IMG/VR virus record: IMGVR_UViG_3300025770_000008
Coordinates: 1-64,000 of that record
Origin: a virus
Direction: 5' to 3' (one strand)
Length of the DNA stretch: 64,000 nt
Of the stretch, positions 8,671 through 59,426 are shown one piece after another. Under the pieces are notes generated by a model, which searched no databases, was not told where the DNA came from, and saw only the letters and a program-made list of their open reading frames with translations. Positions within the stretch are counted from its first letter, which is position 1; each line of letters begins with the position of its first letter. The translations under genes were made by a program, and so were the position numbers.

Positions 8671-8672
8671 GG

Positions 8673-8687
8673 TATTAGCCGCTAATA
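8673..8687. promoter_or_regulatory. TATTAG-CTAATA dyad operator, copy 4
   Basis: GGTATTAGCCGCTAATACC has 9-bp arms. It overlaps the stop codon of the - strand gene at 8682. Confidence 0.7.
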
Positions 8688-8816
8688 CCGGGGCTTCTTG
8701 GCGAGTGCTTGCCGCCGCTTCTGCACGACGGCTTCCTTGAGCAGTTTCTTGAGGAAGTCGCGGCGTGTCCCTGCGCCCAGTACCAGCCCCGTAATCGACC
8801 CTGTTTTCTTCCGCAT
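8682..8816 (-). CDS. Small basic protein, 44 residues
   Basis: MRKKTGSITGLVLGAGTRRD, then KKLLKEAVVQKRRQALAKK, is strongly basic and helical and could bind nucleic acid. The TAG stop is supplied by the dyad. AGG lies close to the ATG, so initiation may be weak. Confidence 0.45.
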   Translation of the reverse strand: MRKKTGSITGLVLGAGTRRDFLKKLLKEAVVQKRRQALAKKPRY

Positions 8817-8834
8817 TCCTAGAGTCTACCAGGG

Positions 8835-8872
8835 TGCAAAAGCGGTAGTGCTTTTGGGGATAAGAACTATGC
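8835..8872 (+). promoter_or_regulatory. Phage promoter with conserved leader
   Basis: TGCAAAAGC, spacer, then CTTTTGGGGATAAGAACTATG. The leader carries GGGC-AATTAC-GCCC and GCAGC-TGA-GCTGC hairpins before AAGGAG. The same leader design recurs at 13733 and 29891. Confidence 0.75.
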
Positions 8873-8928
8873 ATAGGGGCAATTACGCCCATTTCATCCA
8901 CGCAGCTGAGCTGCAGAAGGAGTCAACT

Positions 8929-9900
8929 ATGCCGGCCATTATCGTTCGCGTGACGAACTCGCCCGAGCAGGTCCGCAAGTTCGTAGCGCAGGGCTTCTGC
9001 CCTGTGGAGTGTTCCATCGGCGGGGAGTCCATCACGGACGACCTGCAAATGGACCACCACGGGGCGCTCTCCCACCTGGAGAGCGTCGCTCTCCGCGCCT
9101 ACCGCGACCACTACGGCGCGCGGCGCGAGGACCCACGCTTCGTCATCGTCGGGCAGCCCGACGCGGACGCGACCTTCGCGGTCGCGTCTCTCGCGGGAAT
9201 CCTCCCGCACCCGCAGGCGGACGTCTCCGCCCTGCCGCCCCACCTCCACCGGGGCGCGCAGAAGGACCTGACCGAGTTGGCGGCGCTCATCGCGAAGGTG
9301 GACACGGACCCCATCGGGTGGGACCTGTCCGAAGAGGAGGGCGGCGACGTCGTCCTCACGTGGAACGCCCTGACCGCGGGCGCCCCGCAGACCTCGCTGT
9401 CCGGCGAGATGGGGGTGGGCCTGTGGAAGCAGCTGGTATCGGGTCACCCGGCCCACCGGCCGCTGCTGGCGGCGGGCCTCACCACCGAGGCTGCGCGGCG
9501 GGAGGCGGCAGCGGCAGAGGACGTCCGTCAGGACCATGCCATCGGGTTCGTCGAGGCGTCCCGAACCTGGGGCTTCGATGTCTGGTACTCCCGGCTGCAG
9601 GGGACGGGCTCGGCGAACGAGGCGAAGGGCTGGCTGCGCCCGGTGGTCATCGCTCGGGTCGCGGCGACCAGTGGCATCACCGTTGGTTGCCCCAACGAGG
9701 CGGTCGCGGAGGAGATGTTCGGCCCAGGCGGCCTCAAGAACGTCTTCGAGGCGTTGGGCGAGGTCACCAACGCCCCGGGCTGGGGTGGTCGCGAGGCCAT
9801 CGGTGGTGGGCCGCGCGGCGTGGAGCTGAGCATCGAGCAGCTCCACGCCGCGGTGAAGCTGCTGCGGGACCTCTACGCCGAGCAGCGCCTCGCCCGCTGA
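8929..9900 (+). CDS. Putative DHH-like phosphoesterase, 323 residues
   Basis: Residues about 38-45 read DDLQMDHHG, and about 30 residues on QPDADATFAVASL resembles the metal-binding D-x-D-(G/A)-x-x-(S/A) motif of DHH-family phosphoesterases. The order (DHH first) is unusual and the GGH motif of the DHHA1 domain is not obvious, although GGGPRG occurs near residue 295. If it is a member it is divergent or permuted; hydrolase activity is inference. AAGGAG precedes the ATG at 8929. Single-gene unit with a strong leader, so probably highly expressed. Confidence 0.6.
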   Translation: MPAIIVRVTNSPEQVRKFVAQGFCPVECSIGGESITDDLQMDHHGALSHLESVALRAYRDHYGARREDPRFVIVGQPDADATFAVASLAGILPHPQADVSALPPHLHRGAQKDLTELAALIAKVDTDPIGWDLSEEEGGDVVLTWNALTAGAPQTSLSGEMGVGLWKQLVSGHPAHRPLLAAGLTTEAARREAAAAEDVRQDHAIGFVEASRTWGFDVWYSRLQGTGSANEAKGWLRPVVIARVAATSGITVGCPNEAVAEEMFGPGGLKNVFEALGEVTNAPGWGGREAIGGGPRGVELSIEQLHAAVKLLRDLYAEQRLAR

Positions 9901-10027
9901 CCGCCCGGTTCCATCGGCACTCACACACTGCCGTCATCCGTGTGTGGCTCCCCGAATGCATGACTAGGCTGGTCGTGCCTTCCGGGAGAGTGTCTGTGTC
10001 TAAACCACCAGGAAGAGGGAGAGAGAT

Positions 10028-10471
10028 ATGTTTCGCGCAATCGTAGCGTGGATTATCGAAGGAATTGAGGAGGCGCTGCGGCGCCTCGAAAACTGGAACG
10101 AGCGCCGAGTGGCGCTCTCCGAGGTGCGAGAGGAGCGGACGGAGCAGATGCGCCGGCTCAACGCCCGGCTGGTGGGGTCATTCAGCGACCTCGTCGAGGT
10201 CGAGGCCCGGCTACCGCGCGAGGCCCGAGTGGTCTGCGAGGTGAAGGCGGCGGAGCTGGAGTGGCCGCTGGCCATCGCGCGAGCGAAGCAGGTCAGCGAT
10301 GGCTGCCTGCTCCGGGCGGCGGAGCTGGAGGTGAAAGCCTCCACGGCGGCCACCCACGGCACGGCCGGACTGTGCCGTGTCGCCGACCTGCGACGGCGTG
10401 CAAACGTGCTGCGAGAGGCAGCCGTGAGCATCCCCTCGCTAGCCCGCGCAGCACAGCACCTCACCGCCTAA
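10028..10471 (+). CDS. Coiled-coil protein, 147 residues
   Basis: An N-terminal amphipathic or weakly hydrophobic helix (MFRAIVAWIIEGIEEAL) is followed by almost unbroken Glu/Arg/Ala helices. Similar in style to the proteins at 985 and 13828. GAGGGAGAGAG precedes the ATG. A hairpin (CACACAC with GTGTGTG) lies in the preceding gap. Function is unknown. Confidence 0.65.
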   Translation: MFRAIVAWIIEGIEEALRRLENWNERRVALSEVREERTEQMRRLNARLVGSFSDLVEVEARLPREARVVCEVKAAELEWPLAIARAKQVSDGCLLRAAELEVKASTAATHGTAGLCRVADLRRRANVLREAAVSIPSLARAAQHLTA

Positions 10472-10472
10472 G

Positions 10473-10521
10473 TCCCCGCGTCCTGCGGGGGCAGCGCTGC
10501 CCTTCCTGGGCGCGCTTCTTA
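10473..10521 (+). terminator. Double hairpin terminator
   Basis: CCCCGC-GTCCT-GCGGGG and GCGCTGCCC with GGGCGCGC, followed by TTCTTA. Confidence 0.6.
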
Positions 10522-10523
10522 CC

Positions 10524-10560
10524 TGCAAGACCCCTACATGTTTTGGGCATAAGGACTATG
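10524..10560 (+). promoter_or_regulatory. Phage promoter with 5-prime hairpin and structured leader
   Basis: TGCAAGACC, spacer, then TTTTGGGCATAAGGACTATG. ATGGAGG-AACTCG-CCTCCAT forms a 7-bp hairpin at the transcript start. Further stems (CGTGC with GCACG, GGACC-ACTTGA-GGTCC) fill the 100-base leader of the lipoprotein genes. Confidence 0.7.
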
Positions 10561-10664
10561 GAGGAACTCGCCTCCATCAACCGTGCCCGAAGGGGTTAAG
10601 CACGGACCACTTGAGGTCCACAACCGGCACTCCGCACTGCGCGGGTGCTACAAGGAGGTGCGCC

Positions 10665-11180
10665 ATGCGTGCACTCGTTTATCTGTTCATCCTCGCTGGG
10701 ATTCAGGGCTGCGATGCCCCGGAGCCCGGTCTGCCCGGCGTGACCGAGCGGACCTTTTTGGTCAAGAACGTCGGGCAGGCGTTGACCCAACCCCAACTGA
10801 GCATCGTCACCGGTATCCCCGGCTCGACGAGCCCGGCGCCTGTCGAGTACATCGACGAGGCGTACAAGTGGGGGATGGACAGGATCCTCCCCCAGAAGGG
10901 CAGCCCGGACGACATCGCGCTCGTCGTCGGCTGGAATGAGCTACCGGGGACCAAGGTCGCCTTCACCAACAAGGGTGAGGGGGTCGTCATCCAAACCCCG
11001 GTCGGGGGAGCGTCGACCAACGACGTCCACGTGCCCACGGAGGAGGGGCGCTACATCCCGGGGCAGCGTCTCCATGTCGAGGGGTACATCCCGCAGGAAA
11101 TCACCCACGAGCAGCTGATGGCGCTCAAGGCCGACATCGCGGCGCTGAGTGAAGCCATAACCGAGGGGTACGTACCGTGA
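10665..11180 (+). CDS. Putative lipoprotein, 171 residues
   Basis: The N-terminus MRALVYLFILAGIQGC is a short lipoprotein signal with lipobox LAGIQGC-like cleavage before Cys16, predicting a lipid-anchored periplasmic or outer-membrane protein. The mature part is beta-rich with an acidic helical tail. AAGGAGG precedes the ATG. Its stop overlaps the GTG of the next, also exported, gene. Phage lipoproteins often block superinfection at the envelope; that role is inference. Confidence 0.7.
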   Translation: MRALVYLFILAGIQGCDAPEPGLPGVTERTFLVKNVGQALTQPQLSIVTGIPGSTSPAPVEYIDEAYKWGMDRILPQKGSPDDIALVVGWNELPGTKVAFTNKGEGVVIQTPVGGASTNDVHVPTEEGRYIPGQRLHVEGYIPQEITHEQLMALKADIAALSEAITEGYVP

Positions 11181-12883
11181 GGCTGCTCACGCTTCTCTTC
11201 CTCGCGGGCTGCTGCGGGAACGGGTTGGAGTACAGCGTCAACGGGGGCGCGTGCATGCCCGCCCCTGGAGCGGGGGAGTTTCGTGGTGACCAAGGGGACA
11301 TCTGCGACCCCCGCCTCGCGCACAGCGAGGTCGAGGCCGACCCCTTGGTGGCTGGCTACGGCTGGAAGGTGGTGACCCGAGCGGGTGACTGCCGCGGCTC
11401 GTGCACCGCCGTTACAGGGCGGTTCCGGTCTTGGGTGCAGAACACCCGAGTTGGTCTGGTGGACATCCCCATCCTGACCCACAGCTTCTCGTGCACGGTG
11501 CTGGATGCAGCGCCAGACGAGGGGGACCTGGGCAACATCTTGCCCGTGTGCGCCGAGGAGAACGAGTACGTCATCCTCGAAGGCGAGGGCGGGGTCATCC
11601 TCTACCCGGAGGCGTGCTTGGAGTTCCCCCTTGGCCAGTGCCCTGCTGGTGTTGGGGCTCCCGTGGGTAACGTCGGTGCGTGCGCGCTCCAGCGTTGTGC
11701 CGACATCAACACGTTCGACCTCGGTCCCGGGGCGGCGTGTGGTGACGGGGGCATCAACATCGCCGCGGGTGGTGAGGATGGCGGCATGCCTGCTGTGGCC
11801 GAGATGGAGGAGGCCGTCTCGTGTGAGGAGGCGAAGGACGTGGCTTACGCCGCGGCCCTCAACAACCTGCCTGGGGACGTTGGGCAGCGAGCGGGGTCGT
11901 TCCTCTACAGCATCATGTACGAGGGCGACCGCATCGACCGCGAGGGTGACCCCAACGCAGCCCTCTTGGCGTGGCGCGAGTTCGAGATATTCGCGTGCGA
12001 CCTGCTCATCATCCTCAACAACCCTGAGCTGCCCGGCTCGGGGAACGTCTTCTGCTCGAACGCCGGGGGCAATCCCCGTGTGCCCCTCTACAGGACGCAA
12101 GCCACCGACATGGTGGTCCCGCCCGCGCTGTGGAGACGGATGCTGCTCGAAGGCGAAGACATGGACCCCGATACCGCCGTGGTCCACCTGCCTGCTGGGC
12201 GGCGTCGATACGCCGATGGGCTCGTCCGAGACCGAGGGCCTTGGCCGGATGCACGCGGAATCCTCTGCGAGCATGACCGGGGCTGGGACTCGTGGAACGA
12301 GATTATCGAGATGAAGTACACGACGCCGACCTTCGACCCCTCGGAGTGGTGCCTCGAAATCGACATCAACGACGCCGATGACCTGCGTCGGGGCATGTGG
12401 GCGTGTGAGCGCTGGTACGGTCGGGCTACCCAAGCCCAGGACTACCTCGCGCACGCGCTCGTGGAAACCACCGCAGGGCGGCACACGGACGTGGAGTACT
12501 GGTTCGGGCGAGGCCCTTCCGACGACTTCGCCCTTCTCATCGGCGCTCTCCCCGAGCAGTTTGCCCACCCAGAATTCGGGCGGCTTATGAACACGCCGAA
12601 AATCATCCCCATCCCGGGGCTGAACGAGATACCCGTCTACTTCGCTGACCGCATGGTCGGGGCGGGTGAACGGGGCTTGCTGCACCCGCCCATCGAGCTG
12701 GGGCTGCAAGGAGGCGACCTGGGTGACCTCATCGGTCGCGAGCTGGACCGGCGCATCTGGCCCGAGATGGCTGCCGACGAGGCCATCACGAACTTCAACA
12801 AGCAGTGGCGGTGTGGGGCTCCTGGCTCCCGACCGGACATCCGTAATTGTGCGGACTACCACTTCGACCTCTGGACGCTATAG
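11177..12883 (+). CDS. Large Cys-rich putative lipoprotein, 568 residues, GTG start
   Basis: Begins MRLLTLLFLAGCCGNG, a lipobox-type signal with Cys at 12-13. The mature protein has about 20 Cys (for example DCRGSCTAV, CAEENE, CALQRCAD), consistent with disulphides in an oxidising compartment. Many Trp/Tyr-rich segments occur in the C-terminal half (DSWNEIIEMKY, WACERWYG). No family recognised. It is the largest gene of region 1 and sits in a three-gene exported-protein operon. Confidence 0.7.
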   Translation: MRLLTLLFLAGCCGNGLEYSVNGGACMPAPGAGEFRGDQGDICDPRLAHSEVEADPLVAGYGWKVVTRAGDCRGSCTAVTGRFRSWVQNTRVGLVDIPILTHSFSCTVLDAAPDEGDLGNILPVCAEENEYVILEGEGGVILYPEACLEFPLGQCPAGVGAPVGNVGACALQRCADINTFDLGPGAACGDGGINIAAGGEDGGMPAVAEMEEAVSCEEAKDVAYAAALNNLPGDVGQRAGSFLYSIMYEGDRIDREGDPNAALLAWREFEIFACDLLIILNNPELPGSGNVFCSNAGGNPRVPLYRTQATDMVVPPALWRRMLLEGEDMDPDTAVVHLPAGRRRYADGLVRDRGPWPDARGILCEHDRGWDSWNEIIEMKYTTPTFDPSEWCLEIDINDADDLRRGMWACERWYGRATQAQDYLAHALVETTAGRHTDVEYWFGRGPSDDFALLIGALPEQFAHPEFGRLMNTPKIIPIPGLNEIPVYFADRMVGAGERGLLHPPIELGLQGGDLGDLIGRELDRRIWPEMAADEAITNFNKQWRCGAPGSRPDIRNCADYHFDLWTL

Positions 12884-12892
12884 GAGTAGACA

Positions 12893-13360
12893 ATGATTGG
12901 GAAAATCCTGGCAGCGGTTCTCGCGTTAGGCGTCCCGGGTGGGGTGCCTACCGAGGAATTGGGGCCGAGCATCAGCTTCCTCCGCGTGCCCGACGCGGTG
13001 ATGGACCTCAACGTGCGGAAGACCCTGATGGGTCATCCGCTCATCGTGAAGCACCCGGTGCACACTGACGTGCGTATCGGGCTCAGCGTCAACCACTCGG
13101 CCAGCCGGGTGTGGGTGCATGCCTGGAATGTGCGGACCGGGGACTTCGGCGGGAAGCACATCGGGTCGAGGCGACAGGTGTACGAGCAGGTGGCGCTGCT
13201 CAGCCTGGAGCATGGGTGGGCGTTCCAGTCCATCTCCGGTGCCCCGCTCGCCACCAAGGCGGATTGGGGCGACTTCCTCGGCCGGGTGTCGGCTGCATCG
13301 GCCCACGTCCCGCCATACGACCCGGTGGAGATTGAGCGGGTCCTCAAACAGCAGCGTTAG
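12893..13360 (+). CDS. Putative secreted protein, 155 residues
   Basis: N-terminal signal-like segment MIGKILAAVLALGVPGGVPT, cleavage probably near residue 20. The mature part carries His-rich beta segments (KHPVHTDVRIGLSVNHSASRVWVHAW). Third gene of the exported-protein operon, ended by the hairpin at 13368. Confidence 0.65.
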   Translation: MIGKILAAVLALGVPGGVPTEELGPSISFLRVPDAVMDLNVRKTLMGHPLIVKHPVHTDVRIGLSVNHSASRVWVHAWNVRTGDFGGKHIGSRRQVYEQVALLSLEHGWAFQSISGAPLATKADWGDFLGRVSAASAHVPPYDPVEIERVLKQQR

Positions 13361-13367
13361 CCGCTGC

Positions 13368-13400
13368 GGGCGTCCCCCTTCTGGGGGGCGCCTGTTCTTA
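13368..13400 (+). terminator. Strong hairpin terminator
   Basis: GGCGTCCCCC-TTCT-GGGGGGCGCC followed by TGTTCTTA. Confidence 0.65.
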
Positions 13401-13401
13401 C

Positions 13402-13440
13402 CTGCAGAACAGGGGGGCGTTCTTGGCATAAGAACTGTGA
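13402..13440 (+). promoter_or_regulatory. Phage promoter reading a non-coding region
   Basis: TGCAGAACAG, spacer, then TTCTTGGCATAAGAACTGTG. A GGAGGC-ACTA-GCCCCC hairpin follows at once. No long gene lies between here and the terminator at 13702. Confidence 0.65.
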
Positions 13441-13700
13441 ACGGAGGCACTAGCCCCCCAGTAGGAGTGCGATTGTGAAGTGCTAAACCACCAGTCAGCC
13501 GTGTCTTGTCCCTAGGGGTAAGAACGGGTAGGGGGTAAAGGAAGTGTGTGCTCGGTCCGCACCGAGATCCCCAATGACACGGGGTGGAGTTAAAGTTCCC
13601 ACCGCTTCGGCGGATGCGAGAATCCGGGAACAACAAACCACAGGTCCGGCGCCCTGACGTCGTTAACAGCGTAGCCCCCCTCTACGCTTCAGTGGTGTGC
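13441..13700 (+). ncRNA. Candidate structured RNA with a three-codon ORF
   Basis: No long gene lies here, although a promoter and a terminator bracket it. Stems seen: GTGTC (13501) with GACAC (13576); CTCGGT-CCGC-ACCGAG (13551); CCGC-TTCG-GCGG (13602) inside GTTCCC (13595) with GGGAAC (13626); AGCGTAG with CTACGCT (13668). At 13475 a ribosome-site-like AGTAGGAG precedes GTG-AAG-TGC-TAA. RNA identity is inferred; no known family matched by eye. Confidence 0.5.
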
Positions 13701-48558: not shown

Positions 48559-49032
48559 GTGTTGAAAACATTAGTTGATCTGAGCGCGCTTTATTACGCA
48601 TGGCAGGACATCAAACGTCTGGAGCCCCGGTACAGCCAGGCAAGACTTGACTACGGCGACCTCGTAAAAGCCGCACAAGACAAGGTCTTCGGACCAGACC
48701 ACACAGAACCTGTTTGGGGCGTAACCACTCGCATACGCCCTGGAGCCCAGACCAGCTTCCTACAGAGGCTGAACGCACGCGGATGGGAAGTCTGCTTGCG
48801 AAACGCTCGGGTGAGCGGTCACTCAACGCCAGTCGCCGCAAGGCTGGCCCAAGTGGCAACGCTTCACCCCGGAGAGCGCATCCTCTGTATCTCGCCCGCC
48901 ACGCACATGGACGAGGTACTCAGCTGGCTACAGCCGGACCGGATTACCGTAGCCTTCTTCGCAGACGGCTTCGAGACCACGCACCCCGACAAGCTCGTTC
49001 TCAACGAGCTGCTGTCCGGATGCACGGCGTAA
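48559..49032 (+). CDS. Possible NYN/PIN-like protein, 157 residues, GTG or TTG start
   Basis: GTG at 48559, or TTG at 48562, follows AAAGGGAGG. VDLSALYYAW resembles the first strand and Asp of NYN/PIN nuclease domains, and RILCISPATHMDEVLSWLQ followed by ITVAFFADGF resembles the last two strands. The second and third catalytic acids are not obvious, so it may be inactive or another Rossmann-like fold. First gene of the ubiquitin-like operon. Confidence 0.5.
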   Translation: MLKTLVDLSALYYAWQDIKRLEPRYSQARLDYGDLVKAAQDKVFGPDHTEPVWGVTTRIRPGAQTSFLQRLNARGWEVCLRNARVSGHSTPVAARLAQVATLHPGERILCISPATHMDEVLSWLQPDRITVAFFADGFETTHPDKLVLNELLSGCTA

Positions 49033-49346
49033 CCGCCCATCGACTGCTTCCCTTCAAGACCACATCGCTTCTCGGGGTTGGCCCGGGTCGCACATTGAAA
49101 CTCATCCGCAGGTCGGTCACTATTGACGGACTTGCACGCCTGACCTATGGGGGACTGGTACACACCGCAGAAGTCCTGAACGAAGATGCGCCATTGACGG
49201 CCGTGCTTACAACCACAGACACTTCCCCCCCGACGTACACGTACATGCTCAGCTTGCAGGGTGAAACCGCAGCCGCAGCAGAGAAAGAACTCAGAAAATG
49301 GATAACCTCAAGAACCTCGACCCCTCCGACGCCAAGGCCGCTCTGA
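49020..49346 (+). CDS. Hypothetical protein upstream of the ubiquitin-like gene, 108 residues
   Basis: ATG 49020 overlaps the upstream stop by 13 bases. Beta-rich with a Lys/Glu helix near the end (ETAAAAEKELRKWI). The last 16 codons overlap the ubiquitin-like gene. No family recognised; a partner of the modifier system is possible by position. Confidence 0.55.
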   Translation: MHGVTAHRLLPFKTTSLLGVGPGRTLKLIRRSVTIDGLARLTYGGLVHTAEVLNEDAPLTAVLTTTDTSPPTYTYMLSLQGETAAAAEKELRKWITSRTSTPPTPRPL

Positions 49347-49720
49347 AGGCCATGGACCGCGACCAGAAGGCGGCCTACGCGTCGCCCTGGACCAGCAAGA
49401 CGGGCATCTCCGCGTGGATCGAGGACCTGTCGCGCTTCACCTCGGCCAACACCACGACCGCCGCTGTGTCGAGCGGTGGCGGCAGCGGTGGCGCGTCCCG
49501 GGTCATCATCGACCGCGCCGGAAAGCGCAAGTTCGAGGTCGAGGCCGAAGCCGGGGTGAACCTGTTCCGCCTCTTGGCGGACAACAACGTCAACATCAGC
49601 GAGCGCGAGGTCTCCGTCATCAGGCCGGACATGTCCTCGACGATGGCCTCGAACACCACAACCCTCTCCGCGGGCACGTTCCGCGTTCAGGTGTCGCAGA
49701 AGGTGGAGGGCGGCTGCTAA
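49298..49720 (+). CDS. Ubiquitin-like modifier ending Gly-Gly-Cys, 140 residues
   Basis: Residues 1-65 are a helical and flexible N-terminal extension ending in a Ser/Gly linker (SSGGGSGGAS). Residues about 67-140 show the beta-grasp order: strand RVIIDRAG, strand KRKFEVEAEAG, helix VNLFRLLADNNVN, strand, loop, then the last strand TFRVQVSQKV leading to EGGC. A C-terminal Gly-Gly with one extra residue is the form expected of a ubiquitin-like precursor trimmed by a JAMM peptidase, then activated by an E1. E2-, JAMM- and E1-like genes follow. An intrinsic terminator directly downstream suggests it is made in excess. Activity is inferred. Confidence 0.8.
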   Translation: MDNLKNLDPSDAKAALKAMDRDQKAAYASPWTSKTGISAWIEDLSRFTSANTTTAAVSSGGGSGGASRVIIDRAGKRKFEVEAEAGVNLFRLLADNNVNISEREVSVIRPDMSSTMASNTTTLSAGTFRVQVSQKVEGGC

Positions 49721-49752
49721 GAGCCCCTTCCCGCTGCCTCACCGGTAACTAG

Positions 49753-49785
49753 AAGGGCGCGGGAAACCGCGCCCTTTTTCTATTT
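49753..49785 (+). terminator. Intrinsic terminator after the modifier gene
   Basis: GGGCGCGG-GAAA-CCGCGCCC followed by TTTTTC. It lies between the modifier gene and the enzyme genes of the same operon, so it would attenuate the enzymes relative to the modifier. Confidence 0.8.
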
Positions 49786-49798
49786 GAAGGAGATACCT

Positions 49799-51151
49799 TT
49801 GCGCATCGGCCTCATTGGCTTAGATGCGGGGGCAACTGACCGCGAGGTCGTGCAGGCCCTCGTTGACCGCTACAATACCGCCGCCAAAAAGGCGGGCACC
49901 GGGCTCACCCGCATGGTCGTCAACCTCCAAGCGGAAGCTGACGCCTTTCCCAATCTTATCGCCGACGCGATGGTGAAAACCGACGACGGAGAAGAAGCCA
50001 TCGCGGCGGCGAAGGTCGCCAAGGAAGCCGCACTCGAACAAAAGGCGCTTGCGGACGCTGACGTACTTGCCCTGCAGCAACGCGTATCGACCGCCAAGCG
50101 TGACGGAGAGCGGGCGGCCAGCAACCTTAGTGACGCCCATACCCAACTGCTACAGAACCAGCAGGCACACAGGCACGCCCTGAACCTGCTCCAGCGGCAC
50201 AACAGCAACCAAGCAAAGGTTGCGAAGCGACTGGGTGCCCTCAAGACCCGCATCGAAGCGGGTATGCCCTACCCCGAGGAAGACGAGAACGTCGGATACT
50301 TCCTGGCCCTCATCGACCGCCGGGCTGGAATCACCGTCATCGACCGGCCAACCTTCCTGGAAGTGTCCTTCCGCACCAAGCGCATCACACGCACCTGGGC
50401 GGAAACTTCGGAGGATGGTACGTGGCCCATTGATACCTACTTCCCCCGGCTCTCCGTGCGCATCCGACTGAACCAGGGGAATGTCTCTCGGCACGCGGGG
50501 GCGTACATCACTCCCTTTATTGACGAGCCCGTCGACCTTCTGACCGCCGGTATGGACTACTTCATGCCACATGCGAACAGCGGGGGCAGCCTCTGCTGTG
50601 GAAGCACCGGCTCGTCAGAGCTGCTAGACCACATGTCTGACGGGCGGTGGTTGGACGCGGCCATCCTGGTCTGCCACCTACTCAGTCACTACAACCACGC
50701 GGACCCGTACCTTGCGCTGAGCAACTGGACGGACTGCCACACGGACGAGGACGAATGTCCCTGTGGTCGTGGGGCGCCACACACCGCGAACGCTTGCCGC
50801 ACACCGCGCTGTTTTGTCTGCGCAGACACACTCCCTTCTCCCAAACCCGGGCAGACCCCCACAGTGGCGCACACCAACTGCCTCCGAACCGAAGCCAAAC
50901 GACAGGGCAACCCGTTTCCAGACGCCAAAGGCATCTGCGGGCAGCCCATCTTTCCCGACCTCCTCGGGTCGGCCGACACGAATCTCCAGCTGACCCAGAA
51001 TCTGGGCGGCCTACTCGAAAGGCTCAAGACGCGTTATGAGCGGAACCAAAACCGCGACAGCGGCCGAATTGAAGTTCACCCTGCCTCCCCTCCGATTCAA
51101 GCAGCAGGTCATGGATCGGATGATGCAGCTGGTCCGCACCTCCAACGGTGA
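49799..51151 (+). CDS. E2-like conjugating protein with coiled coil and Cys-rich tail, 450 residues, TTG start
   Basis: TTG 49799 is set by GAAGGAG five bases upstream. Residues 1-55 are a small alpha/beta segment, 65-150 an Ala/Glu/Lys coiled coil. Residues about 165-305 fit a UBC fold: strands, a Pro turn, then PHANSGGSLCCG (H258-x-N260 and Cys266/267), like the HPN...C active site of E2 enzymes, followed by a Trp and a helix (LDAAILVCHLLSHYNHADPY). Residues 313-361 have Cys/His pairs (CHTDEDECPC, CRTPRCFVC, H-x-x-C), a possible RING-like or ribbon zinc domain. Its last 116 bases overlap the JAMM gene. Assignment is by motif, not alignment. Confidence 0.7.
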   Translation: MRIGLIGLDAGATDREVVQALVDRYNTAAKKAGTGLTRMVVNLQAEADAFPNLIADAMVKTDDGEEAIAAAKVAKEAALEQKALADADVLALQQRVSTAKRDGERAASNLSDAHTQLLQNQQAHRHALNLLQRHNSNQAKVAKRLGALKTRIEAGMPYPEEDENVGYFLALIDRRAGITVIDRPTFLEVSFRTKRITRTWAETSEDGTWPIDTYFPRLSVRIRLNQGNVSRHAGAYITPFIDEPVDLLTAGMDYFMPHANSGGSLCCGSTGSSELLDHMSDGRWLDAAILVCHLLSHYNHADPYLALSNWTDCHTDEDECPCGRGAPHTANACRTPRCFVCADTLPSPKPGQTPTVAHTNCLRTEAKRQGNPFPDAKGICGQPIFPDLLGSADTNLQLTQNLGGLLERLKTRYERNQNRDSGRIEVHPASPPIQAAGHGSDDAAGPHLQR

Positions 51152-52622
51152 ATGCAGTTGGGCATGCGTCTGCGCGCCCAACGATGCCCGGCTCATCGTG
51201 GACATCATCGTCCCGAAGCAGGAAAACACCCGGGTCAGCACGATCTTCGACACGAAGGACGTGATGGCTCTGTGCGAGTCCGCCGGGTACACCATGGAGC
51301 GGCTCGTCGTGTGGGGCCACAGCCACGACGTCATGGAGTGCTTCTTCAGCGGCACTGACATCGCGACCGCCAAGAAGCTGGAGTGGGACATCCAGTACAG
51401 CCTCGTGCTGAACAAGAAGGTGGCGGCGAAGTACTTCGCCGGCAAGCCCATCCTGAAGGCGGACTACTACCTCCGCCTGGATATCTTCTACATGGGGCTG
51501 AACTTCACGGTCGGGGAGAAGCTCGAATTTTCCATCGACGTGGACGTGTCGTCGGAACTCAGCTGGGCGCAAATCACCCTGGAGGAGCAGGCCAGCTACG
51601 GGACTGCCCCCGTGACGGTCTACAAGCAGAAGAACCACGGGACCCCTGGGGCTCGTCCCGCCTACAACCACGCCACGGCGCGGCGGCTCGGGCTCACAGA
51701 CGATGACGACAGCAGCTACTGGCCCCAGTCGATGAACGGGCTGGTGGCAGCACATCGGGCTCGGCACGGCGGGAGTAGTGGTCCTTCCCAGCGTCACCTC
51801 CCCGCAGACCTCGCGGTCCTGCTGAGCTGGTCTGCGAACGCGCGCAGCAAGTCGGCCATCGACCTTCGGGAAACTCTGCCCTACATGGCCCACGTCCTCT
51901 ACTACGAAGGCTTCCTCAAGCCCTCGGACCTGGAGGGGCTGGAGAAAGCCGTCAAGGAAACCAGCCTCGCGGCCAACAGTGTCGACGAGTGGCACCTGCT
52001 CGATGCCTTCTGCAAGCAGGCCAAGGAGCGCGGGTCAGTCCTCAGCTGGTCTCAGACCGACTCCGAGTTCGAGATCATCGTCGCCAGCGAGTACAAGCGG
52101 GTGCAGTGCACCTACGACGACGCGAGCGGCTGGTGGATGGCGGGGGCGTCCGTCCACGGTCGGCGCGTGCTCCACGATGTGGACAAGGCGATGGACGGGA
52201 CCGAGGCGAACATGGCCGGCGGCTTCTGGAAAGCGAGGCCCATCGGCATCATGTGGGAGAAGCGCCCGCCGGAGTACATGGCCACCGGCTGCCTCTCCAA
52301 GAACCTCCGCGTCCGCGCGGGGCAGACGACCATCAGCATCTGGATGGGTGTTGGTGGGAAGAAGGCCCTAGACCAACTCAAGGACAACGAGTACGGCCTC
52401 GTTGCCATCGTCCCGGACAGCCTCGAAGCGGAGGGCTGGGCCGAGCTTGGGGCGCCTCGGGGTGAGGTGGCCACTCAGCCTCCGACGCCCGAGCCGGAGC
52501 CCCCGCTGGAGCTGCAGGAGGTTGTTGACGCGGAGACGGGGGAGGTCACGGCGGTGCCTCCGAAGAAGACCACCAAGAAGAAGACCACCAAGAAGAAGAC
52601 CACCAAGGAGGCAACGGCATGA
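51036..52622 (+). CDS. JAMM/JAB peptidase with large C-terminal region, 528 residues
   Basis: The N-terminal domain has Glu39 (NGECSWACV) and WGHSHDVMECFFSGTD, a perfect JAMM motif (His95-x-His97-x7-Ser105-x2-Asp108) that binds catalytic zinc. JAMM enzymes cut after the Gly-Gly of ubiquitin-like proteins, so it may mature the modifier or remove it from targets. Residues 150-490 are unrecognised and far longer than a minimal JAB protein. The last 20 residues are three KKTTK-type repeats. Stop overlaps the E1-like start (ATGA). Confidence 0.85.
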   Translation: MSGTKTATAAELKFTLPPLRFKQQVMDRMMQLVRTSNGECSWACVCAPNDARLIVDIIVPKQENTRVSTIFDTKDVMALCESAGYTMERLVVWGHSHDVMECFFSGTDIATAKKLEWDIQYSLVLNKKVAAKYFAGKPILKADYYLRLDIFYMGLNFTVGEKLEFSIDVDVSSELSWAQITLEEQASYGTAPVTVYKQKNHGTPGARPAYNHATARRLGLTDDDDSSYWPQSMNGLVAAHRARHGGSSGPSQRHLPADLAVLLSWSANARSKSAIDLRETLPYMAHVLYYEGFLKPSDLEGLEKAVKETSLAANSVDEWHLLDAFCKQAKERGSVLSWSQTDSEFEIIVASEYKRVQCTYDDASGWWMAGASVHGRRVLHDVDKAMDGTEANMAGGFWKARPIGIMWEKRPPEYMATGCLSKNLRVRAGQTTISIWMGVGGKKALDQLKDNEYGLVAIVPDSLEAEGWAELGAPRGEVATQPPTPEPEPPLELQEVVDAETGEVTAVPPKKTTKKKTTKKKTTKEATA

Positions 52623-53308
52623 GCGAAGAACCCAACTACCACGCGCGGTACTCCACAGTGCTCGACGTCAAGAGCGCCAAGGAGCACGGCATCCTGGTCA
52701 TCGGGGCGGGGTCCATCGGGAGCTGGCTGGTCCGGGCGCTGGTCCGCACCGGATTCGAGAACGTCACGGTGATGGACTTTGACGTGGTCGACAACGTCAA
52801 CGTCTACCCGCAGGGGTACGGCCTTGGTGACGTAGGCTTGGACAAGGTCGAGGCACTATACGAGGGCATCGGGGCGACTCTCGGCGTCGAAATCAAGCCG
52901 GTCGTCGACAAGTTCGAGTCGAAGGAGCAGGTGCCGGAGGGCACCAGCTACATCATCCCCGCGGTCGACTCGCTGGCAGTCCGGCAGCAGGTGTTCGAGC
53001 AGGCGTGTCTTCTGCCCGCCACCGAGCTGGTGCTGGATGCCCGGATGGGTGCTCGGCACGGTTCCATCCACGCGGCCTGGATGGAGGACACGGAGGGGGT
53101 TTTCGAGCGGTACCCGCTGTCGTTCGACGCGACCGGCGTCTCCCCGCTGCCCTGCACCGAGCGCAACACCCCATTCTGCGGGATGATGATCGGTGCCGCG
53201 TTGGCGGGGTACGTCACCAGCGCCTTTCTTGGCGAGCAGGAGAAGCTGTATCAGCGCTACAACTTCTCGCTGTTCAACCCCGCTGGCCTCCTCATCTCGG
53301 TCGACTAG
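52619..53308 (+). CDS. ThiF/E1-like activating enzyme, 229 residues
   Basis: A Rossmann nucleotide-binding start (GILVIGAGSIGSWLVRALV, GxGxxG at 29-35) is followed by VMDFDVVDNVNVYPQ, the Asp-x-Asp and Asn/Gln pattern of E1-type adenylation domains. Asp117 lies in IIPAVDSLAVR. A late Cys (LPCTERNTPFC, Cys179) is placed like the E1 thioester cysteine. It would adenylate the modifier C-terminal Gly and pass it to the E2-like protein. No extra domains, so it is of minimal ThiF/MoeB type. Confidence 0.85.
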   Translation: MSEEPNYHARYSTVLDVKSAKEHGILVIGAGSIGSWLVRALVRTGFENVTVMDFDVVDNVNVYPQGYGLGDVGLDKVEALYEGIGATLGVEIKPVVDKFESKEQVPEGTSYIIPAVDSLAVRQQVFEQACLLPATELVLDARMGARHGSIHAAWMEDTEGVFERYPLSFDATGVSPLPCTERNTPFCGMMIGAALAGYVTSAFLGEQEKLYQRYNFSLFNPAGLLISVD

Positions 53309-53311
53309 CCG

Positions 53312-54028
53312 GTGGCCATAGAAGTTGAGCTGGAGCCGCTCTTCCGCTCCGCAATCGTCCCCGCCTTTGAATTCCGGTATTTCCCGGAGGACAGAGAAGG
53401 CGCGCGGCTTCCCCCCATCGACATACACTTCGTAAGGAGCGTGCTCGACGGGGAGGCCGTGTACATGGGGGTGCCCCTGGACAAACGGGGGTTCGCGCGG
53501 GCTCGGGGAGTCATCATCATGAAGCCGGACGCCATGATGATAGGCCCCCGTGCGTTGAGCTATGTGCTCAGCGGGGGTTGGGCGCCCAATAACGCCACAG
53601 AGACCAGAGCCACCAACCGCGGTGCCAAGGATAGGTTGTTCACGACCTTCTGGCAGGCGCTGATGGCACACGCAACGAACAAGAGCGCTCAGGGCCCAGC
53701 AGTACTGGGAAAGACCCTCAGCTCATACCTCCAGGTCAATGTCGACGTGGCGGAGGGCGTGCTCTCATCTGACCAGCTTGAGGATCTGCGAGACCTCAGC
53801 TGCCCTCAATGGCTCGCAGACGCCCTGGTTCACGCCGGGGTGGTCCCAGTCATCAATCCCAGCGATGTCGCGAACCGCTTCATCAAAGGCGCCCACACCA
53901 CCGGGCCGTGGAATGCCCACGCGGACACTCAGGTCGCGTCCTACAGCGTCACTATCGGGGTGACGCAATACCTCAAGAGGCACTCCATCACCTACCCGCC
54001 CTACCAGGGTCGTCGTATTAGCCGCTAA
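53312..54028 (+). CDS. Hypothetical protein, last gene of the ubiquitin-like operon, 238 residues, GTG start
   Basis: GTG 53312 follows the E1-like stop by three bases. Alpha/beta N-terminal half (LFRSAIVPAFEFRYFPEDRE, RARGVIIMKPDAMMIGPRAL) and helical second half. Not recognised; it could be a target adaptor or another ligase part by position. Its TAA stop lies inside the dyad at 54016. Confidence 0.65.
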   Translation: MAIEVELEPLFRSAIVPAFEFRYFPEDREGARLPPIDIHFVRSVLDGEAVYMGVPLDKRGFARARGVIIMKPDAMMIGPRALSYVLSGGWAPNNATETRATNRGAKDRLFTTFWQALMAHATNKSAQGPAVLGKTLSSYLQVNVDVAEGVLSSDQLEDLRDLSCPQWLADALVHAGVVPVINPSDVANRFIKGAHTTGPWNAHADTQVASYSVTIGVTQYLKRHSITYPPYQGRRISR

Positions 54029-54050: not shown

Positions 54051-54214
54051 CGTGGTGACCACAAATCATTGTGGTCACCACGTTCAATGATTTCAGGTAC
54101 TTAGCCGTACACACTCTGTGGGTGACCACAATTTTGTGGTCAGCACCTCTAATGATTCTGCATACTTAGGCCCGTTGTAGAAGTATTAGAGGTGACCACA
54201 AGGTTGTGGTCACC
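54051..54214. repeat. Left inverted-repeat array (IR-motif-IR-motif-IR)
   Basis: Three inverted repeats share TGACCACAA-(2-4 bases)-TTGTGGTCA: 54051-54082 (perfect 14-bp arms), 54121-54147 and 54191-54214 (11-bp arms). Between them lie two direct copies of AATGATTYNGNNTACTTAG (54086 and 54151). Strong candidates for protein-binding sites, such as a centromere, origin or operator array. Confidence 0.85.
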
Positions 54215-54244
54215 CCCAGAGCCCGCACACACCTGGGACGAGAA

Positions 54245-55327
54245 ATGCCCCATCGTGAGTTTTCGTTCCTTTCTCCCTCGAAACCGGACACCGTTCACAT
54301 CAAAATCAGTCGCAGTTCTGTCCTAAAACGGCCTCCAGAAATAGAGTTCTACGACCCAACTGACGATACGTACTGGGAAGAGGGCTCGCTTTCAACGAAG
54401 GATACGGGGCGGATTCTGCAGTGGACGCACATTCCAGCCTCGCGGCTGGTAGCCGTGCACCTGCCCTACCGCGTCGCCTGCCCAGAGGTGTGGGCGGGGC
54501 TCCAGAAACTGAACACCTACAAGACCCTGCCCCCGGCAGTGGTCCTGGTCCCCAGCCTCTACACCAACTTCCTCTCTGCTCTACAAGACTTCACACTCTC
54601 TCCTGAGCAGTTCACTACGTTCAGACAACGTATGTTTGACCAGTACCTCTGGGAGGCTGAGGAGCTGGTCTACGACGCGGGGGTGTTCTTCCGCGAAGCG
54701 GAGGCCCTGCAGCGCCTACTCTCTGACTGGCTGGCAGATGCACGGAACGTCAGGAGCACCGTTCTCGGGCTAACGCCCGTTGCTGACGAGGGAGTGATAG
54801 CGGCTACCGAAACTAACATTACTGAGCTAGAAGCTGAGAGAGTACAACTCATCTCAGGTATCTCAGACTTGCAGGGGCGCTTCGCTCACGCCCTCGCAGC
54901 GCTACGTCTCGCAGACCGTCTGCAGATGAAATCCTCCTTTGACCAGATAGCTGCGCTGCTTGGGCGAGTAAATGCCGTAAACCTCATCAACCTGCAGGTA
55001 GAAGCAATAAGGCAGACAGAACTTGCGTCCTCTTCGAGGGACGCACGGATGGTGGCCGACCTCGCCGGGGAGCTGCGGGTTCTGGCCCAGAGCTACCCCG
55101 CGCTGCGCTTCCTCACCGTCGAGGCAGATGACGTGGTCCTTCGTTTGGGTGTTGTGGAGATTCGCCTTAAAGAACAAGGACTTGAGATAAGAGGGGACGT
55201 TTCCACCCTCAGAAGCCTCCGAATTAAGAGCGAAATACAGCCAGTTGCGGACGTAAACACGGCCAGAACTAGGCTGGCTTCTATAAAGAGGCGCAAGCGC
55301 GACGGGGCGAACACACCCAAGGGGTGA
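54245..55327 (+). CDS. Hypothetical protein between mirror-image repeat arrays, 360 residues
   Basis: ATG 54245 follows GGGACGAG. An N-terminal beta-rich domain (residues 1-110) is followed by a mainly helical middle with coiled coil (TETNITELEAERVQLISGIS) and a basic end (SIKRRKRDG). Its start lies 30 bases after the left array, and its stop codon lies inside the right array. It may bind the repeats and control its own transcription; no DNA-binding fold is recognised. Base use looks more AT-rich than its neighbours, suggesting separate acquisition. Confidence 0.65.
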   Translation: MPHREFSFLSPSKPDTVHIKISRSSVLKRPPEIEFYDPTDDTYWEEGSLSTKDTGRILQWTHIPASRLVAVHLPYRVACPEVWAGLQKLNTYKTLPPAVVLVPSLYTNFLSALQDFTLSPEQFTTFRQRMFDQYLWEAEELVYDAGVFFREAEALQRLLSDWLADARNVRSTVLGLTPVADEGVIAATETNITELEAERVQLISGISDLQGRFAHALAALRLADRLQMKSSFDQIAALLGRVNAVNLINLQVEAIRQTELASSSRDARMVADLAGELRVLAQSYPALRFLTVEADDVVLRLGVVEIRLKEQGLEIRGDVSTLRSLRIKSEIQPVADVNTARTRLASIKRRKRDGANTPKG

Positions 55328-55656: not shown

Positions 55657-56958
55657 ATGAGTGAGCAGACCGAAAACACCGCCTCGGCGGAAGCCGCAGC
55701 CCCGGTTCCCGCCGCTGGCACGGGGGCTGAGTCCTCTGGCCCGTCGATGGACCAGATGTGGGTGCCCCTGGACGCAATCGAGACCGACAAGATCGAGAAC
55801 CTCCGCGGTGGTGAGACCGCCCCCGAGTCCCTGGCGCGCAGCGTCTGGGAAGCTGGCACCGGCCACAGCCAGCACCTCATCTCCCCGCCGCAGGTCATCA
55901 CGGTCGTGCAGACCAGTGACGACGGCGAGGTGATGGTCGACGACGACGACAACGCCATCATCGAGTCCATCCACCTCGTGGCGGGCTTCCAGCGCGTCGC
56001 AGGCTTGCGCACGCTGCGCCGGATGATTGCGGAGCACAACCAGCGCGTCGCCGACGAAACCATCGGCGAGATGGAGAAGGACGAGACGTACCTCTTCCGC
56101 AACGGGGATGGCGTCATCACCGTTGAAATCGAATTCCAGTACGACGATGTCCCCGTGGTCTTCACCGAGGCCACTGAGCTGACCCCCGACGTCGTGGGCT
56201 GGGCGCACGACCTCAACCTCGCCGAGAACCTCGCTCGCACGGGCCTCAACCTCGCGTCGGAGATTTCCGGTGCGGAGAAGCTGCTCGCCGGTGGGCGGAC
56301 CCAGACCCAGGTGAGTGCGCTGCTGGCGAAGTCCCAGGCGACGGTGTCGCAGTACCACAAGGTCGCGTCCAAGACGCTGCCGGAGTACCTCGACGCCATC
56401 CGTGACGGGTCCATCACCCTGAAGCAGGCCCTCGCGGTGGCCAGTAGCAAGGACATGTTCAAGAAGGACGGCACGCCGAACCGCACGGCCCAGAAGGCCG
56501 CGCTGGCGAAGCTGACCTCCGACAAGAAGGCCGCTCGCGACATCGTGGAGAAGGCCAAGACGAAGCGGACCACGGGTGAGGTGGCGAAGTTCGCCGCGGA
56601 CCTCACCTCCGACGCCTGCTACACCGACATGGACGACGACCGCCGGCAGGCCATTCTGGCGACCTTGGCGTGGTTCAACATGGGCTGCGATGAGAACGCG
56701 CTGGTCTACGGCGTGACGGACGACATCGACCTCGCGGTCATCCCGAAGCCGAAGCCGAAGAAGGAGGCCAAGCCCAAGAAGGTCGCCGCGAAGAAGACCA
56801 CGAAGAAGGCCGCGAAGAAGACCCCGCGCAAGCGTTCGGCCAAGAAGGTTGACGCCGCTGCCCCCGCGAGCGAGGCGGCTGCACCGGCTGGCGAAGAGGC
56901 GGCGCCCGCTGCCCCGGCCAAGCGCAAGCTGCGTCGGAGCAGCAAGGCCGCAGAGTAG
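55657..56958 (+). CDS. ParB-like DNA-binding protein with lysine-rich tail, 433 residues
   Basis: Residues about 32-195 fit the ParB/Srx N-terminal domain: HLVAGFQRVAGLRTLRR stands for the ParB G-E-R-R box (here GFQR, 110-113), and HDLNLAENLARTGLN for the N-x-x-R-x-x-L box. Residues 203-262 are the ParB helix-turn-helix (GRTQTQVSALLAKSQATVSQ, then LPEYLDAIRDGSITLKQALA). Residues 365-433 are a histone-H1-like Lys/Ala/Pro tail. ParB proteins load on parS DNA and use CTP; with GERR altered, activity is uncertain. It may recognise the arrays at 54051-55488. AAGGA precedes the ATG at 11 bases. Confidence 0.75.
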   Translation: MSEQTENTASAEAAAPVPAAGTGAESSGPSMDQMWVPLDAIETDKIENLRGGETAPESLARSVWEAGTGHSQHLISPPQVITVVQTSDDGEVMVDDDDNAIIESIHLVAGFQRVAGLRTLRRMIAEHNQRVADETIGEMEKDETYLFRNGDGVITVEIEFQYDDVPVVFTEATELTPDVVGWAHDLNLAENLARTGLNLASEISGAEKLLAGGRTQTQVSALLAKSQATVSQYHKVASKTLPEYLDAIRDGSITLKQALAVASSKDMFKKDGTPNRTAQKAALAKLTSDKKAARDIVEKAKTKRTTGEVAKFAADLTSDACYTDMDDDRRQAILATLAWFNMGCDENALVYGVTDDIDLAVIPKPKPKKEAKPKKVAAKKTTKKAAKKTPRKRSAKKVDAAAPASEAAAPAGEEAAPAAPAKRKLRRSSKAAE

Positions 56959-56973
56959 AGCCCACCAACAGAG

Positions 56974-58581
56974 ATGAGCGCCAAAGAACAGCTTGGCGTG
57001 TATCTCGACGCTGCGTACCCGGTCCTCGCGATTCAGTCGCACGAAGAGGACCGGGTCGAGGCAGCCATCCTCGAACACATAAGGAGTGGAGACGAGGTGG
57101 AGAACGGCCGCACGGCCGTGGTCCGCTGGTCGTTGAGCCAAGCTGTGCAGACCTTGTACAGCCCCGAGCCTGATAAGGCCGTTGACGACAACTCGGTGAA
57201 GTCCCCAGTAGGTGCCCTGCAGTACATCAACTCCCGCCTCGATTCGAGTGGTGGGCAGGTTGATGCGTGGGTCTGGATACTGAGGGACTTCTGCCATTTC
57301 CTTACTACCGGGAATGCCTACCCAATCCTCCGGCAGCTGAAAGATATAGCGCAGAAGATATCGACGCAGGGGTTGCCCCACAGCATCATCATCGTTGACG
57401 CTGAGGTGAACATCCCCAAACGGCTAGAGAAGACCGTCACGGTCATGCACTGGCCCCTACCAACCCGTGAAGAGCTGACCGACATCGTGACGATGTACGG
57501 GGACAGCCAAGAACTTGAGCTAACACCCGTCCAGGTGTGGGAGGTCAGCGGGGCCTCACTGGGTCTGACTATTCATGAGGTCGGTAACGCCCTCGCCAGC
57601 AGCTTCTGCTCAACCGGCCGCTTCGACCCGCGGATAATCACGGCAGAGAAGAAGGGCATCATCAAGCGGAGCGGGTTCCTTGAGTTTTGGGACTCTTTGA
57701 ACGGTCTTGAGTCCGTGGGTGGCATGGGCACCCTCAAGAGCTGGCTGGGGCAGCGGAAGCTTGCTTTCTCGCAAGAAGCGAGGGAATACCAGCTGCCTCT
57801 CCCCAAGGGGCTGCTACTTGTCGGGGTTCCCGGCGGTGGCAAGAGTTGGGTAGCCAAAGCCATCGGCGGCGAGTGGAACCTCCCCGTGGTCCGACTGGAC
57901 CTGGGCAAAATCATGGGCAGCTACCTCGGACAGTCCGAGAAGCAGCTCCGTGAGGCGCTTCAGCTTGCTGAGGTAATCAGCCCTTGTGTGCTCTGGGTGG
58001 ATGAGCTTGAGAAGGGTATGGGCAGCGGCGGCGGGGAGAGGGACGGAGGTACCTCGGACCGCGTCTTCGGCACATGGTTGACGTGGATGCAGGAGAAGAC
58101 CTCTCCCGTGTTCGTGGTGGCCACGGCGAACGACGTGTCAAAGCTACCGCCTGAAGCCCTGCGCGCTGGTCGCTTCGACAGCATCTTCTTCGTCGACCTC
58201 CCCAACACCGTCGAGCGCAAGGAGATTCTCTCGATTCACCTCCGTGCTCGGGGGCGGGATGGGGGGAACTACGACCTCGACCTCCTCGCTCAGAAGAGCG
58301 CGGGCTACACGGGGGCGGAGATAGAGACCCTCATCGAGAGCGCCATGTTCTCCGCCTTTGCTGAGAGCCGTGAGTTCAACGAGAACGACATCATCGCTGC
58401 CCAAACAGTAGTGGTGCCTATCTCACGGACGATGAAGGAGAAACTGGAGAACCTTCGCTCGTGGGCGGAGGGCCGAGCCGTATACGCTACGGCGCCTGAA
58501 GAGGATGCTGTCCCTGCCGGGCCTACCGGTACTCGCGTCGGGCGGCTCAAACGAGGAAGTCGAGGAAGAAGGACTCAATGA
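56974..58581 (+). CDS. Ycf46-like AAA+ ATPase, 535 residues
   Basis: C-terminal AAA+ module: Walker A GVPGGGKSW (284-292), Walker B CVLWVDELEK (338-347), sensor 1 in VATAND (about 386), and ALRAGRFD (Arg finger region, 396-402). The N-terminal 240 residues (SHEEDRVEAAI, then VHWPLPTREEL-like features) match the long N-domain of Ycf46-type ATPases rather than FtsH or Cdc48. ATP-driven remodelling of proteins is the expected role. In bacteria this family is often found with DUF1257 and DUF2997, both encoded just downstream. Confidence 0.8.
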   Translation: MSAKEQLGVYLDAAYPVLAIQSHEEDRVEAAILEHIRSGDEVENGRTAVVRWSLSQAVQTLYSPEPDKAVDDNSVKSPVGALQYINSRLDSSGGQVDAWVWILRDFCHFLTTGNAYPILRQLKDIAQKISTQGLPHSIIIVDAEVNIPKRLEKTVTVMHWPLPTREELTDIVTMYGDSQELELTPVQVWEVSGASLGLTIHEVGNALASSFCSTGRFDPRIITAEKKGIIKRSGFLEFWDSLNGLESVGGMGTLKSWLGQRKLAFSQEAREYQLPLPKGLLLVGVPGGGKSWVAKAIGGEWNLPVVRLDLGKIMGSYLGQSEKQLREALQLAEVISPCVLWVDELEKGMGSGGGERDGGTSDRVFGTWLTWMQEKTSPVFVVATANDVSKLPPEALRAGRFDSIFFVDLPNTVERKEILSIHLRARGRDGGNYDLDLLAQKSAGYTGAEIETLIESAMFSAFAESREFNENDIIAAQTVVVPISRTMKEKLENLRSWAEGRAVYATAPEEDAVPAGPTGTRVGRLKRGSRGRRTQ

Positions 58582-59426
58582 GAACGTACCGGACGGGGCT
58601 CGGCGTATTGGACGCCGTAGTCGCGGGCGGACTCCGTCCGGGCGTACTCGCCATGTGGGGTATGCCTGACTCGGGTGTATCCACGCTGGGCAGAGCCATC
58701 CTGAAAACAGCGCGGCCAGAGCCTACCGGTCTGGTCGCCACAACCATCCCCGACCCCAGGTGGCTCCGCCAGCTGAGGGTCGACCCAATCATCGCCGTCC
58801 CCGGTACCGGGGAGCTTGGCTTCGAGACGGCCTACCACATGCTGAAGGAGGGAGTGCGGGTCGTCCTGATTGACCACCTCCCTGGACTGGTGACCTCCGC
58901 GACCTCCAACACCGCGCTGTGGGCGCACGTCCCGTACGCAGAACGGCGGCTAATAGACCAGGGGCTCTCCATGCTCCGGTCCACGGCTAAAGCCGTTGGC
59001 GCCCTCGTTGTGGTCGCAAACCAGATGCGCTGGAGCATGGAGCATGGCATCCACCCCTACCTGCACGACACCGTCAGCTGCCATATGGACCACGCCATCG
59101 AGATGCAAAAGGGGTCCTTCAGGACCATCTACGGCCAGCTCGCTGAGCAACGGGCGCGGGTCCGCCTGCTCATAGCCAACGGCCGCACCCGAAAGGACGC
59201 GGAGACCAAGGTGTCCATCTGGCCGCGGCGGGGAATAGACGAGACATACGAGCTGCTCATGTACCTGCAGCACACCGGGCTCTTCCTACGCGTAGGGGCT
59301 TGGTGGAAGGACCCCGTAACCAACACCAACTTTGGTCCGGGCTACCGGGCCGCAAGAAACCAACTAGCGCGGAAACGTGCTCACTACATAAAGGCGCTGG
59401 ACGAATGGAAATCGAAATCATCGTAG
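58578..59426 (+). CDS. RecA-like protein lacking the Walker A lysine, 282 residues
   Basis: The start TGLGVLDAVVAGGLRPGVLA and GMPDSGVST (28-36) align with the RecA/UvsX P-loop, but the invariant Lys is Val34. VRVVLIDHL is Walker B-like. WAHVPYAERRLIDQGLSMLR followed by VGALVVVANQMRWS resembles RecA loop L2 and its N-Q-x-R switch. The C-terminal 90 residues resemble DNA-binding parts of phage recombinases. Loss of Lys suggests it binds but may not hydrolyse ATP. Overlaps the AAA gene by ATGA. Confidence 0.7.
   Translation: MRTYRTGLGVLDAVVAGGLRPGVLAMWGMPDSGVSTLGRAILKTARPEPTGLVATTIPDPRWLRQLRVDPIIAVPGTGELGFETAYHMLKEGVRVVLIDHLPGLVTSATSNTALWAHVPYAERRLIDQGLSMLRSTAKAVGALVVVANQMRWSMEHGIHPYLHDTVSCHMDHAIEMQKGSFRTIYGQLAEQRARVRLLIANGRTRKDAETKVSIWPRRGIDETYELLMYLQHTGLFLRVGAWWKDPVTNTNFGPGYRAARNQLARKRAHYIKALDEWKSKSS

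Follow-up and report, generated by a model that had tools for sequence, protein, structure and literature searches.

A phage gene set that probably encodes a ubiquitin-like conjugation module

Introduction

Ubiquitin-like protein tagging is usually regarded as a eukaryotic trait that a few bacterial defence operons share. The locus described here raises the question of whether a virus of bacteria can encode such a system of its own. A first-pass annotation of a 64-kb stretch of viral DNA (the window) had pointed to four consecutive genes with the hallmark motifs of a ubiquitin-like modifier (Ubl), an E2, a JAMM peptidase and an E1, and had read them as a ubiquitin-like conjugation operon of a type known from bacterial chromosomes. 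The restriction to chromosomes does not hold, since plasmids and ICEs also carry such operons (Iyer 2006, PMC1779556), the plasmid-borne PRTRC cassettes among them. Here we analyse the phage genes, their relatives and the known systems that they resemble.

Results

The IMG/VR virus record from which the window comes is 142,974 b long, and the window covers its first 64 kb. We assign the record to a tailed phage because its capsid gene (genome positions 73794-74990) has 17 relatives in IMG/VR and a distant match to a protein of Salmonella phage Arash annotated 'major capsid protein'. Terminase, portal, DNA polymerase I and helicase genes, named by eye, are readable in the gene calls of the record. 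Judging from the translations, there is an apparent intein in both the terminase and DNA polymerase I (outside the window, at genome positions 83237-86074 and 116385-119183). About 14 copies of the element TGCAAAA-N12-13-TTTTxGGGATAAGAACT lie directly before start codons, all on the plus strand (window positions 102, 918, 1670, 8857, 13425, 13756, 14437, 15944, 19084, 23354, 29913 and 30312; genome positions 128183 and 128791), and the element resembles a promoter or leader specific to the phage.

The four genes are present with the motifs described, adjacent to one another between window positions 49298 and 53308, and the E2-like and JAMM genes overlap by 116 b. The E2-like gene, previously placed at 49799, starts with a TTG codon at 49784. 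The locus reads as follows.

48559-49032, plus strand: g1, 157 aa; in relatives not conserved beside the block
49020-49346, plus strand: g2, small protein directly upstream of the Ubl gene; no family match
49298-49720, plus strand: Ubl precursor, 140 aa; predicted beta-grasp domain at about 66-139; putative mature end ...KVEGG, then one extra Cys
49784-51151, plus strand: E2-like protein, 455 aa, TTG start; coiled coil, UBC-like core and C-terminal Cys-rich possible Zn domain
51036-52622, plus strand: JAMM/JAB metallopeptidase, 528 aa; JAB domain N-terminal (25-124)
52619-53308, plus strand: E1-like protein (ThiF-fold), 229 aa; candidate catalytic Cys179 in LPCTERNTPFC
53312-54028, plus strand: g7, 238 aa; 3 bp past the E1 gene
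54206-55327, plus strand: g8, 373 aa; syntenic in all relatives
55657-56958, plus strand: g9, ParB-like; weak HTH_ParB and phage ParB matches
56974-58581, plus strand: g10, AAA+ ATPase; Pfam AAA 2.5e-28, phrog_8638 3.9e-139
58578-59426, plus strand: g11, RecA-like; RecA 4.2e-4 in the window and 7.9e-14 in relative L057

Direct searches of IMG/VR, INPHARED and PLSDB with genes g4-g6 (counted in the order of the list) gave no matches because the copy in the window is the most divergent. Relatives were reached through capsid homologues and an E1 search of those records, which found an E1 in three capsid relatives, and in all three the whole block is present and syntenic. Scanning with the E1 alignment gave 22 loci. 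In total, eight distinct phage genomes, the window and seven others, share the order Ubl-E2-JAMM-E1-g7-g8-ParB-AAA-RecA-like, and all seven relatives have a gene of about 120 aa at the position of g2. The relatives' ParB-like proteins match parB_part (4.4e-11) and PRTRC_parB (2.5e-7), both below cut-off. HMMs built from the other phages, with the window left out, have as their sole matches in the whole genome the window E1 (3.4e-35), E2 (6.8e-16), JAMM (9e-8) and g7 (1.6e-8), which argues that the gene set is more than a chance assembly. No E1 was detectable in G011 (134 kb), one of the capsid relatives, and the module is thus not essential to the lineage. A genome scan for cellular relatives returned one weak Bacteroidales match.

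Among more distant phages, L066, L068, L069 and L071 carry E2-like, JAMM and E1 genes in one cluster, and L068 and L069 additionally encode short Ubl-like proteins. Next to its Ubl/E2/JAMM set, the L068 cluster (7512-13682) contains two E1-like genes as well as two proteins assigned by eye, one MoxR-like AAA and one vWA-like. In L072, L073, L076-L078 and L098 (one phage of 595 kb) a different E1-like protein lies near a short HTH/HSH-type JAB, and no E2-like gene was found near this pair, which is perhaps a separate sulfur-carrier-like set. The AAA+ ATPase g10 (phrog_8638) is common to Corndog-like mycobacteriophages and to Pseudomonas, Rhizobium and Rhodobacter phages that lack tagging genes. 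ThiF is absent from phages that share this ATPase alone (the Corndog cluster, SM1, L338C, RcMenchie and three large IMG/VR contigs), so the ATPase is not tied to the module.

The two enzymes at the end of the set are recognizable by sequence. The E1-like protein can be assigned with confidence to the ThiF fold on its Pfam ThiF match (6.6e-18, above cut-off), which covers one ThiF domain, and its PDB matches are TcdA, MoeB, SUMO E1 and Cap2. The motifs GxGxIGS and DxDxV together with K76, D117 and C179 are invariant in the eight phages, C179 being the candidate catalytic cysteine from sequence features. The JAMM protein has the motif E, HSH-x7-S-x2-D, and E39, H95, H97, S105 and D108 are invariant in the same phages. 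It matches Prok-JAB at 1.3e-4 on the domain alone, below cut-off, and AMSH and RPN11 weakly; the domain is sub-threshold but real.

The modifier is the weak link of the set at the sequence level, and its assignment builds on position, the KVxGG terminus and a structure model. Family profile searches matched neither the window Ubl nor the E2-like protein to any family, and a sequence-only HMM of the Ubls from other phages failed to recover the window Ubl (E 0.29). The Ubl is a single domain ending in ...KVEGG|C, and G138-G139 are invariant across the eight phages. AlphaFold2 (AF2) predicts a beta-beta-alpha-beta-beta topology with moderate confidence (mean pLDDT 61, about 70 in the domain), and nearly all of the 50 best PDB matches to the model are ubiquitin, SUMO, NEDD8, UBL or sulfur-carrier folds, in agreement with the beta-grasp fold proposed in the annotation.

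The E2-like protein contains the motif P-H263...G268-x2-C271-x-G273, in which H263, G268, C271 and G273 are invariant in the eight phages, in addition to a coiled coil and the Cys-rich tail. The H-x-N that had been noted is present in the window but reads H-x-H in the relatives. The fold was modelled by AF2 on the E2 of relative L062, with a core pLDDT of about 90 and a succession of helix, strands, active-site loop and two helices; the Cys-rich tail gave no confident model. The best PDB matches are the eukaryotic E2s Rad6, UbcH5 and UBE2S, at modest scores (Foldseek E 0.018 to 0.4, TM <=0.44), and among viral structures the model matched a single one below E 0.001, that of a 522-aa viral protein. 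A UBC fold, as had been claimed, is thus likely from this model, in that E2s rank first, while the scores give it partial support. With a beta-grasp modifier, a probable UBC fold and modifier and enzymes in a fixed order in related phages, the three points on which the first-pass annotation had staked its reading, the interpretation as a ubiquitin-like conjugation operon is supported.

The residues that follow the Gly-Gly pair bear on the role of the JAMM protein. In systems containing a JAMM gene these tails vary (C in the window, and I, I, NAC, F, RQ, NA, RRPK... with 22 residues, and GK elsewhere). A sister lineage, made up of Xanthomonas phage PhiXhv-15, L070 and Erwinia phage Ep032, resembles the window set in carrying a Ubl, an E2-like protein and an E1, and in PhiXhv-15 and Ep032 the E2-like protein has HPHM...SLCLG and a Cys-rich tail as in the window type. 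These phages differ in that they have no detectable JAMM gene and their Ubls end exactly in Gly-Gly; no JAB was found anywhere in the records of PhiXhv-15 and L070 by two methods, or in that of Ep032 by one. This is the pattern expected if the JAMM protein trims the precursor, and supports that role. The JAMM-less E1s form one clade (100/99 in the E1 tree), and the correlation therefore counts as one evolutionary change.

Related sets also occur in crAss-like, Flavobacterium and jumbo phages. The annotation had called the set unusual in a phage; it does lie in a tailed phage, but phages other than this one have such sets too. In crAss001 (L080, 3289-7699) the genes gp79-gp78-gp77-gp76, annotated 'hypothetical / metalloprotease / thiamine biosynthesis', encode in the same order a Ubl-like domain, an E2-like protein with H-S-H...C-x-G, a JAMM protein with HSH-x7-S-x2-D and an E1. 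The order recurs in related Steigviridae and in Flavobacterium phage Fpv3, although in cr106_1 (L094) no Ubl-like domain was seen in the gene at that position. By hhalign the crAss JAMM and E1 are homologous to the window type (4.9e-9 and 6.2e-34). For the Ubl and E2, alignments with the crAss or PRTRC counterparts are weak (E at best 0.008), so that the likeness is limited to motif and gene order. The crAss Ubl-like domain differs in that it is N-terminal in a longer protein, which has a KSG motif, and in the crAss-like E2 the Cys-rich tail of the window type was not noted. The crAss-like genes labelled 'thiamine biosynthesis' and 'metalloprotease' (in crAss001 and L091-L095) nevertheless look, from motifs and order, like parts of a ubiquitin-like conjugation set. 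In crAss-like phages the set adjoins primase, uracil-DNA glycosylase (UDG) and exonuclease genes.

Among known systems the closest analogue is the PRTRC (ParB-related, ThiF-related cassette) of plasmids, which by our reading of its gene content corresponds to type 6d of PMC1779556. It shares with the phage set the core order Ubl - E2 - JAB - E1, a ParB gene nearby and a location on mobile DNA, where it adjoins ParB, DnaN or primase, and the plasmid matches of the E1 of relative L039 are largely PRTRC ThiF. Membership was rejected, as all PRTRC cut-offs were missed: for PRTRC ThiF (TIGR03736, cut-off 144.75 bits) the window scores 39.5 and L062 67.8 bits, and for PRTRC ParB (TIGR03734, cut-off 278.6 bits) the window has no match and L057 29.6 bits. 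Prok-E2_D (PRTRC_B) did not match the phage E2, while the positive control L099 gave 9e-52, and g2 has no match to PRTRC protein E, which it resembles in position alone. The phage JAB domain is N-terminal and that of PRTRC C-terminal; the phage E2 has a His before the Cys, unlike the Prok-E2_D type; and the phage ParB gene lies downstream with AAA+ and RecA-like genes, unlike in PRTRC. The E1 tree places the E1s of systems possessing E2 and JAMM in a single group (95/88), apart from PRTRC.

The Bil operon likewise combines a Ubl, an E2, a JAMM peptidase thought to trim the Ubl, and an E1, and is defined by a two-domain ISG15-like BilA and an E2 with CEHH after the Cys (PMC11354881). In contrast, the phage set has a single beta-grasp domain, an E2 with the conserved His before the Cys, and an E1 of 229 aa with one ThiF domain where Bil has a pseudodimer of inactive and active adenylation domains; it is also carried by phages. 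Given these three differing features and no Bil match in PADLOC, membership was rejected. CBASS Cap2 and 6A-MBL have a related E1 fold (NCBIfam 2e-11, PADLOC 1.8e-11) but are E1-E2 fusions, whereas the phage E1 and E2 are separate genes without a cyclase or MBL partner; Cap2 membership was rejected for want of this fusion. The phage set is thus a phage-specific variant of the ubiquitin-like operons and not a member of Bil, Cap2 or PRTRC. Neither a system of this kind nor a ThiF, JAB or E2-like protein is mentioned in the Aravind group's jumbo-phage survey (PMC7824862), and no description of the gene set was found in openly readable crAss-phage papers or of any phage-encoded set in openly licensed literature, although one may exist elsewhere.

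Discussion

Taken together, we consider with a probability of roughly 0.7 that the locus encodes a phage ubiquitin-like conjugation module, with protein conjugation as its likely activity. The chemistry can be outlined from the conserved residues. The JAMM protein would cut the Ubl precursor behind Gly139, taking off one residue or more, and may also free targets of their tag. The exposed Gly-Gly end would be adenylated by the E1, which would carry the Ubl on Cys179; from there it would pass to Cys271 of the E2, whose His263 appears to sit at the place of the eukaryotic HPN motif. The E2 would then attach the Ubl to lysines, its coiled coil and Cys-rich domain possibly replacing a separate E3.

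The same parts could instead serve sulfur transfer, with a ThiS/MoaD-like Ubl, ThiF-like activation and JAMM trimming used for thiolation of nucleotides, tRNA or a cofactor. JAB+ThiS+E1 sulfur operons exist (PMC1779556), the best NCBIfam matches of the E1 are of the ThiF/MoeB type, MoaD/TtuB-like carriers are among the fold matches of the Ubl, and the L068 Ubl weakly matches ThiS and Ub-Mut7C. Sulfur transfer is nonetheless improbable, as no complete set lacks the E2-like protein with its invariant H...C-x-G and the conserved neighbours include no rhodanese, sulfurtransferase or cysteine desulfurase.

If the module conjugates proteins, its likeliest targets may be replication or genome-partition proteins of the phage itself, whose genes adjoin the set (ParB-like, AAA+, RecA-like). 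The suggestion comes from gene context, namely ParB/AAA/RecA here, primase, UDG and exonuclease in crAss-like phages, and ParB, DnaN or primase beside plasmid PRTRC; such context is weak evidence for a target, and we put the proposal forward tentatively, at somewhat below even odds. The eukaryotic parallel would be the tagging of PCNA by ubiquitin and SUMO. The module might alternatively be directed at the host, tagging its polymerase, nucleases or defence proteins, or using the JAMM protein to strip host tags such as Bil from phage proteins. Bacteria do tag phages with Bil (cited in PMC12660748; operon in PMC11354881), and a counter-tagging role has been proposed for the JAMM proteins that Borg elements carry in multiple copies (PMC12660748). 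Against this, a JAMM protein alone would suffice for counter-tagging, yet the phages retain the entire set, including a modifier and an E2 of their own, and the neighbours are replication and partition genes rather than known anti-defence genes, which leaves host takeover or counter-defence rather unlikely. The module could also provide superinfection exclusion, in which a resident phage would tag the structural proteins of its competitors, just as Bil, with the same four activities, serves the host (PMC11354881); the missing PADLOC Bil match, the single-domain E1 and single Ubl, and the constant linkage to ParB/AAA/RecA-like genes make this improbable.

Returning to conjugation by a phage module, tailed phages of diverse kinds, with marine, crAss-like gut and jumbo phages among them, may share an old virus-specific ubiquitin-like conjugation system that modifies replication or partition proteins, a broader proposal that we hold as a possibility falling a little short of an even chance. 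Should the conjugation reading be right, bacterial viruses would run ubiquitin-like tagging of their own, and conserved crAss-like genes now labelled 'thiamine biosynthesis' or 'hypothetical' would gain a function. As crAss001 can be grown, the question is directly testable.
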